Shown here: piece by piece, positions 30,786-36,837 of the stretch | Layout of the letters: each line of letters starts with the position of its first letter | Position numbering within the stretch: the stretch's first letter is position 1 | From: Parcubacteria group bacterium CG10_big_fil_rev_8_21_14_0_10_36_14 | GTDB lineage: Bacteria; Patescibacteriota; Patescibacteriia; GCA-002772895 | Reading direction: 5' to 3' | Assembly (NCBI GenBank): GCA_002772895.1 | Contig: PFCS01000040.1 | Span: 1-40,771 of the forward strand | DNA length: 40,771 nt | The notes under the pieces: model-generated | Databases searched by the model: none | What the model was told of the DNA's origin: nothing | Seen by the model: the letters and a program-made list of their open reading frames with translations, nothing else | Translations under genes and position numbers: made by a program

Positions 30786-31240
30786 TTTTTATAAAATGTA
30801 ATTCCTACCAAATTGGGGGATGGGTTATGCGGTGGAGGTGTGTTATAATAAAAAAATAAAATTAATTTTGATGGACATACATATGTATGTCCCTTGCTTC
30901 TATCTTTCCCCTTCGGAGAAGAGGGAGTGAGGAAACAGAAGAATATTTTAAAAAACATTTACTGGAAATAAAATAATTAATATGGATTAAATTTTTTCAT
31001 ATCGTGAGATGTGTGAAAAAGAAAATGTGCAGACCTTACAAAGATGTATATTTACAAAGGCGTGCTTTGCAGACGGGGACATTGTAAATCTCGATGAACA
31101 TAACATATGTATGTTCATTTTATTTTGGATTGATGTGAGATTGCCACGCCGCGCGTACACGCACGCCCTACCACCCGGCAGGCAGGCTCGCAATGACGGA
31201 GAAAAAATGATATTATAAAAATATAATTAATTTTTTTAAT
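30786..31240. repeat. 455-base non-coding mosaic of palindromic repeats
   Basis: No credible gene. In order: an extended -10-like TGT-TATAAT (30841-30849); a perfect 20-bp palindrome with half-site GGACATACAT (30873-30892); a CCCCTTCGGAGAAGAGGG hairpin (30908-30925); a second palindrome with half-site ATGAACAT and core ACATATGT (31094-31118), related to the first; and an element starting GAGATTGCCACGC (31137) and ending CTCGCAATGACGG (31187-31199), which resembles a dispersed palindromic repeat found in many bacterial genomes. An open frame at 31009-31218 runs through the last elements and is not considered a gene. Confidence 0.7.
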
Positions 31241-36091: not shown

Positions 36092-36117
36092 AAATGCGCA
36101 AAAATAGCGTATTTTTT
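36092..36117 (+). terminator. Terminator after the DacA-like gene
   Basis: AAATGCGC (36092-36099) with GCGTATTT (36107-36114, one wobble pair), then T6. Confidence 0.78.
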
Positions 36118-36163
36118 GATATAATTTTTTTTGCTTATTTTAGGTAAGAATTAGCAAAAAAAC

Positions 36164-36192
36164 TTGACAGAAAGGTAAAAATGTGCTATATC
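36164..36192 (+). promoter_or_regulatory. Strong promoter of an orphan short transcript
   Basis: TTGACA (36164-36169), 17 bp, TGC-TATATC (36187-36192): a perfect -35 with an extended -10. Expected start near 36199. Confidence 0.72.
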
Positions 36193-36198
36193 GCTTTT

Positions 36199-36336
36199 TA
36201 GTACGTTCCAAATTGCCTTGAAAGCTTATCAAACGCGCGTTTGGACAATGATATCTCAAATGCGTTTTTGTTTGCTAAGGGGAGAGTTCACACATGTCTT
36301 ACCTCGACTTTACAAAAACAAAGTCGGGGCTTTTTT
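36199..36336 (+). ncRNA. Candidate small RNA, about 135 nt
   Basis: Runs from a strong promoter to a strong terminator with no ORF of useful size. Predicted pairings: TCCAAA (36207-36212) with TTTGGA (36240-36245), and a 12-bp palindrome AAACGCGCGTTT (36231-36242) that competes with it. It does not show the signatures of 6S RNA, SRP RNA, tmRNA, RNase P RNA or a tRNA as far as I can tell. The only ORF is 14 codons (ATG at 36294 after GGGGAG) and it reads into the terminator stem, so a tiny leader peptide is a possible alternative. Confidence 0.5.
36302..36336 (+). terminator. Terminator of the candidate small RNA
   Basis: CCTCGACTTT (36302-36311) with AAAGTCGGGG (36320-36329), an 8-nt loop, T6. 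Confidence 0.92.
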
Positions 36337-36363
36337 GATTTTTAGGCGATTTTAAGATAAGAT
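36335..36363 (+). promoter_or_regulatory. Promoter of the small-multidrug-export-like gene
   Basis: TTGATT (36335-36340) begins in the T tract of the previous terminator; 17 bp later TAAGAT (36358-36363). The ATG at 36370 is 6 bases after it, so a leaderless transcript is predicted. Confidence 0.55.
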
Positions 36364-36369
36364 GGATAT

Positions 36370-36837
36370 ATGTATAACAATGAGCTGACAACAATTCTTG
36401 TGGCAGCGGCGCCGATATCAGAACTTCGCGGAGCGATTCCGTTGGCTTTAGAAGTTTTTCATTTTAGTATTTTGAAAACATTGATATTGGCTTGGATTGG
36501 CAATTTTTTGCCGGTTCCTTTTATCCTTTATCTTTTGGGGCCGATAGAAAAGTTTCTTCGTCGATATAAAATATTTGATAGATTTTTTGATTGGCTTTTT
36601 CATCGCACCAAGCATAGATTTGAAGGAAAATATTTGAAATGGGGAGAGTTGGCGTTGGTGCTTTTTGTTGCCATTCCGCTTCCTGTAACCGGCGCATGGA
36701 CCGGTTCTGTGGCGGCATATCTTTTTGGTATTCCAAAAAAACGGGCAATATTTTTTGTTTTCTTGGGGATTTTGATTGCATCTTTGGTTGTTACTGCTTT
36801 GGACTTGGGGATTGTAAATGGAATAAAATTATTTTAG
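36370..36837 (+). CDS. Small multidrug export-like membrane protein (PF06695-like)
   Basis: 155-residue membrane protein of the COG2426 type (putative small multi-drug export protein). The family pattern is clear: AAAPISELRGAIPLAL near the N-terminus and IPLPVTGAWTGSVAAYLFGIPKKRAI in the second half, repeated halves each with two or three membrane segments. The transport role is an old annotation and unproven. The lipoprotein gene starts 1 base after the stop, so they are one transcript. Confidence 0.88.
   Translation: MYNNELTTILVAAAPISELRGAIPLALEVFHFSILKTLILAWIGNFLPVPFILYLLGPIEKFLRRYKIFDRFFDWLFHRTKHRFEGKYLKWGELALVLFVAIPLPVTGAWTGSVAAYLFGIPKKRAIFFVFLGILIASLVVTALDLGIVNGIKLF

Follow-up and report, generated by a model that had tools for sequence, protein, structure and literature searches.

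The window, a 40,771-nucleotide stretch of contig PFCS01000040.1 of Parcubacteria group bacterium CG10_big_fil_rev_8_21_14_0_10_36_14, carries dacA (PF00768), which adjoins a gene for a putative small multidrug export protein (PF06695; positions 36370–36837, plus strand). The two are separated by 309 bases, as compared to a median gap of 49 bases. Directly after dacA, a hairpin of 8 pairs with a loop of 7 and a T-run (36092–36114, plus strand; predicted fold −7.7 kcal/mol) probably serves as the dacA terminator. The rest of the gap is largely taken up by a unit on the plus strand that begins with a strong promoter and ends with an intrinsic terminator, and that is predicted to yield a small RNA.

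The promoter and terminator of the unit

The promoter is of the sigma-70 type and occupies positions 36164–36192 on the plus strand. It consists of the −35 box TTGACA (36164–36169), the 17-bp spacer GAAAGGTAAAAATGTGC and the −10 box TATATC (36187–36192) with TGC directly before it, thus forming the extended −10 sequence TGTGCTATA. The near-consensus promoter described in the first-pass annotation is therefore present as claimed. A general promoter scan missed TATATC at 36187, since it required T as the last base of the second hexamer. Immediately upstream, at 36126–36163 of the same strand, lies an AT-rich element made up of TTTTAGGTAAGAATTAGCAAAAAAAC and the T-run preceding it, which was delineated by alignment with promoter regions on contigs C9 (locus L042) and C15 (L043) and with the promoter of tRNA-Leu (L003). 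It is a probable UP element or operator.

The terminator at 36302–36336 (plus strand, −13.7 kcal/mol) has a 10-bp stem and an 8-nt loop. The stem-loop itself spans 36302–36329 and is followed by one C and then T6, so that the 10-bp stem with T6 noted earlier was recovered with this single intervening base. The distance from the −10 box to the stem, put at about 105 bases before, was measured as 109 bases. With a start 6–7 bases past the −10 box, promoter and terminator would define an RNA of ~138 nt (36199–36336, plus strand).

In 1000 dinucleotide shuffles of the gap sequence, no comparable promoter-terminator pair turned up. When the 12 largest gaps of the window were tested on both strands, only the focal unit and one other emerged, against a shuffle expectation of 0.01 gap-strands on average. 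A second promoter-to-terminator unit lies at 1112–1350 of the window (TTGACA-17-TAATAT, AGGAGG, terminator at 1328) and probably encodes a membrane-like small protein of 55 residues (1158–1325) behind AGGAGG. The largest intergenic gap of the window (30786–31240, 455 bases) contains palindromes such as GGACATACATATGTATGTCC and is without a clear gene.

A promoter class shared across the genome

The promoter core TTGACA-N11-13-TGTGCTATA occurs exactly 8 times in the 931,733-base (0.93-Mb) genome and not once in the reversed control. One exact copy directly starts the RNase P RNA (L046), and a near copy precedes tRNA-Leu (L003). Another copy (L047) is located upstream of the gene preceding an rpsB-like gene, while those at L040, L041, L043 and L044 have small ORFs downstream; the promoter-terminator units at L041 and L044 encode small proteins. 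An upstream element, TTTAGSYAAAA..TAGC, just 5′ of the −35 box is common to four sites, the focal promoter included. Because the class also drives the RNase P RNA and, by a near copy, tRNA-Leu, the focal unit is very probably transcribed.

The copy on contig C9 (L042) agrees with the focal module at ~75% of positions over 114 bases, a stretch that takes in both the upstream element and the hairpin preceding it. The likeness reaches ~60–70 bases upstream of the −35 box and ends about at the expected RNA start, beyond which the transcribed parts differ. On C9 (minus strand, from about 4895 downwards), a hairpin precedes the sister promoter as it does at the focal site. At L042:1130–1530 a promoter of the same class is followed by a long near-perfect hairpin, the loop of which, TTTTCCTCCTAAGA, is complementary to AGGAGG located before the hairpin. 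On its 3′ side there is a 20-bp inverted repeat, CAGTGCCAAAATGATATAGG/CCTATATCATTTTGGCACTG, and then a class-II tRNA-like element with the acceptor GGCACTG/CAGCGCC (one mismatch), a long variable arm and the T-arm GCAGGTTCGAGTCCTGC. ARAGORN made no call for this element, which is possibly a decayed or unusual tRNA. The coding sequence downstream of the strong promoters at L040, L043 and L003 is G+C-rich in an A+T-rich genome, and the L040 and L043 genes are lipoprotein-like at the start. These three G+C-rich genes were possibly acquired laterally.

Homology, folding and coding potential of the transcript

A covariance search against Rfam, as proposed in the first-pass annotation, revealed no family at the focal site at curated thresholds. 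The best permissive match, rli22, reached 18.6 bits, where the gathering score is 80, and is attributed to chance. No RNA homologue was detected by blastn in 57 relatives or in 381 genomes of the class, all from outside the same family and order. Matches with E ~4e-4 in the class genomes were likewise rejected as chance: of 19 loci that were checked, 18 fall within long open frames, and the remaining one matches over 36 bases. A covariance model built from the single sequence of the RNA body recovered only the source among the class genomes, and phages and viral contigs contain no match to the RNA. A search of GTDB contigs with the exporter protein returned distant relatives only. At the majority of the orthologous loci examined, a dacA-like coding sequence is situated 5′ of the exporter gene, and the gap between the two is short. 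The proposed comparison of this gap in relatives thus revealed no counterpart of the promoter-RNA-terminator unit in these distant relatives, which belong to other families. This suggests that the unit is an added element rather than a conserved leader.

Two housekeeping RNAs were considered as identities. 6S RNA is expected in most bacteria and is abundant; the focal RNA is likewise small and has a housekeeping promoter. The RF00013 model, however, has no match at the focal site or anywhere in the genome, and the focal RNA is shorter and has no long hairpin interrupted by a large central bubble. The small SRP RNA is also a short housekeeping RNA, and one that may be missing from this genome: RF00169 gives no match in the whole genome, rated 99% complete, or at the focal site. 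Either the organism's SRP RNA has diverged or it falls in a gap. The focal RNA does not qualify, having neither the GNRA-capped helix nor the conserved internal loops, and an apical loop of 8 nt.

The whole RNA folds more stably than its shuffles (z −2.99), which is owed mainly to the terminator. The RNA body without the terminator has a z of −1.25 (24 of 200 shuffles). The body being not unusually structured, the switch between mutually exclusive pairings (TCCAAA/TTTGGA or a palindrome) suggested in the first-pass annotation is unsupported.

The earlier statement that no ORF exceeds 14 codons applies to the only ORF led by a Shine-Dalgarno sequence, a 14-codon frame encoding MSYLDFTKTKSGLF (36294–36338, plus strand), the body of which is the terminator hairpin and the stop codon of which lies in the T-run. 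It does not hold for ORFs in general, given that a 35-codon ATG ORF (36248–36355) and a 45-codon TTG ORF (36218–36355) start inside the unit and run through the terminator. These two have no good ribosome site and no Pfam match. Upstream of the 14-codon frame is the Shine-Dalgarno-like GGGGAG (36279–36284, plus strand), which in the predicted fold pairs with the RNA's own 5′ end with a probability of 0.72–0.99.

Readings of the unit

If translated, the 14-codon frame would make the unit an mRNA for the peptide MSYLDFTKTKSGLF, started at GGGGAG/AUG, the terminated transcript of which would have its 3′ end at the stop codon or shortly before it and so be nearly nonstop. A 5-base Shine-Dalgarno match of the GGGGAG type at a fitting distance is rare, being seen at only 1.2% of the window's ATGs, and other promoter-terminator units of the genome (1112–1350; L041, L044) encode small proteins led by such sites. 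However, the stop codon sits in the T-run, where release of the transcript is expected, the codons are those of the terminator stem itself, and the ribosome site is predicted to be base-paired. We consider a peptide message quite unlikely; on its account, the unit is regarded as noncoding with moderate confidence.

A somewhat better case, which we still rate as unlikely, can be made for a cis-acting leader, or attenuator, of the exporter gene, in which transcription from 36164 would be halted at 36302–36336 unless a signal permits read-through. One conceivable signal is a ribosome at GGGGAG/AUG 36294, since the first terminator arm would lie within its footprint. The terminator ends only ~34 bases before the exporter ATG, the probable dacA terminator would isolate the exporter from dacA, and sequestration of GGGGAG by the 5′ end (at the above probability) makes a switch conceivable. 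As in known attenuators and riboswitch leaders, a strong promoter and a structured 5′ region are followed by a terminator just before a transporter gene. Unlike them, the unit has no Rfam aptamer or riboswitch family match and no counterpart in the short ortholog gaps, and its strong terminator stem is kept in the folds, where no antiterminator competing with the 10 pairs was found. The exporter may also have a promoter of its own, TTGATT-17-TAAGAT (36335–36363, plus strand), which is of the leaderless type and ends 6 bases before the ATG. This promoter is weak in itself, with a poor −10 box and a score of 8/12 near the shuffle mean of 7.4. The exporter orthologs at L017, L030 and L035 have promoters scoring 10–11/12 at the same 6-base distance, and a −10 box lies 6–7 bases before the exporter ATG at L015, L017, L030 and L035. 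Of the 38 long ORFs in the window, 3 start with a Shine-Dalgarno motif, as would fit leaderless starts. Taken as sequence patterns, these features suggest a separate promoter for the exporter gene, and the leader reading becomes less likely. A combination of these ideas appears highly improbable to us: an abundant, lineage-specific regulatory RNA of a reduced genome in which neither Hfq nor CsrA is recognisable, with the RNA's 5′ end hiding the ribosome site of the 14-codon ORF and a ribosome bound there blocking the terminator, whereby the start of translation would control read-through into the exporter gene.

The unit could also be transcriptional debris, that is, a duplicated strong promoter module that landed in the gap, with a terminator insulating the neighbour and a short transcript devoid of function. 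In favour of this, the 114 bases of similarity to contig C9 cover the promoter module and leave out the transcribed part, no conservation was detected in the genomes compared and the body is weakly structured. On the other hand, an intact strong promoter and a strong terminator in so compact a genome (with its median gap of 49 bases) suggest upkeep, and we regard debris as very unlikely.

The best reading of 36199–36336, to which we give slightly better than even credence, seems to be an autonomous, lineage-restricted small-RNA gene. By its sequence, the unit has a promoter of the genome-wide class and an intrinsic terminator, with no convincing protein gene and no detectable homologue; from these features we infer expression, the exact ends and a function in trans. 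The earlier designation as a candidate small RNA is thus upheld with regard to an independent short transcript, for which the promoter class and the strong terminator speak. A regulatory function did not gain support: there is no Rfam match, no conservation was detected in genomes from outside the family and order, and the body structure is ordinary.

In the proposed mechanism, the strong promoter, of the class that also serves the RNase P RNA and tRNA-Leu, would direct the housekeeping RNA polymerase to start at ~36199; intrinsic termination ahead of the exporter gene would then leave an RNA of ~138 nt. Searches of the whole genome with models of Hfq and CsrA gave no match. The RNA would most likely act in trans by base pairing, independently of both proteins, via the stretches left unpaired: its 5′ end, the loop ACAAUGAU at the apex and CACACAUGUCUUA, the linker leading up to the terminator. 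A target scan of 53 start regions within the window found none that stands out (best z −3.0). The unit resembles trans-acting intergenic sRNAs in having its own sigma-70 promoter, a length within ~100–140 nt, an intrinsic terminator and an intergenic position without a convincing ORF. It differs from them in that its genome has no detected Hfq and in that it is an orphan of a single genome.

A limited literature search brought up no publication dealing with small RNAs in reduced genomes of this type. The unit is a credible but ordinary candidate intergenic sRNA gene, limited to one known genome. Being strongly promoted, terminated and apparently noncoding, it offers a concrete place for an sRNA search in metatranscriptomes. 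In addition, the promoter class, defined by the upstream element and TTGACA-N12-TGTGCTATA, may be used to locate other strongly expressed genes for RNAs and small proteins in this genome.
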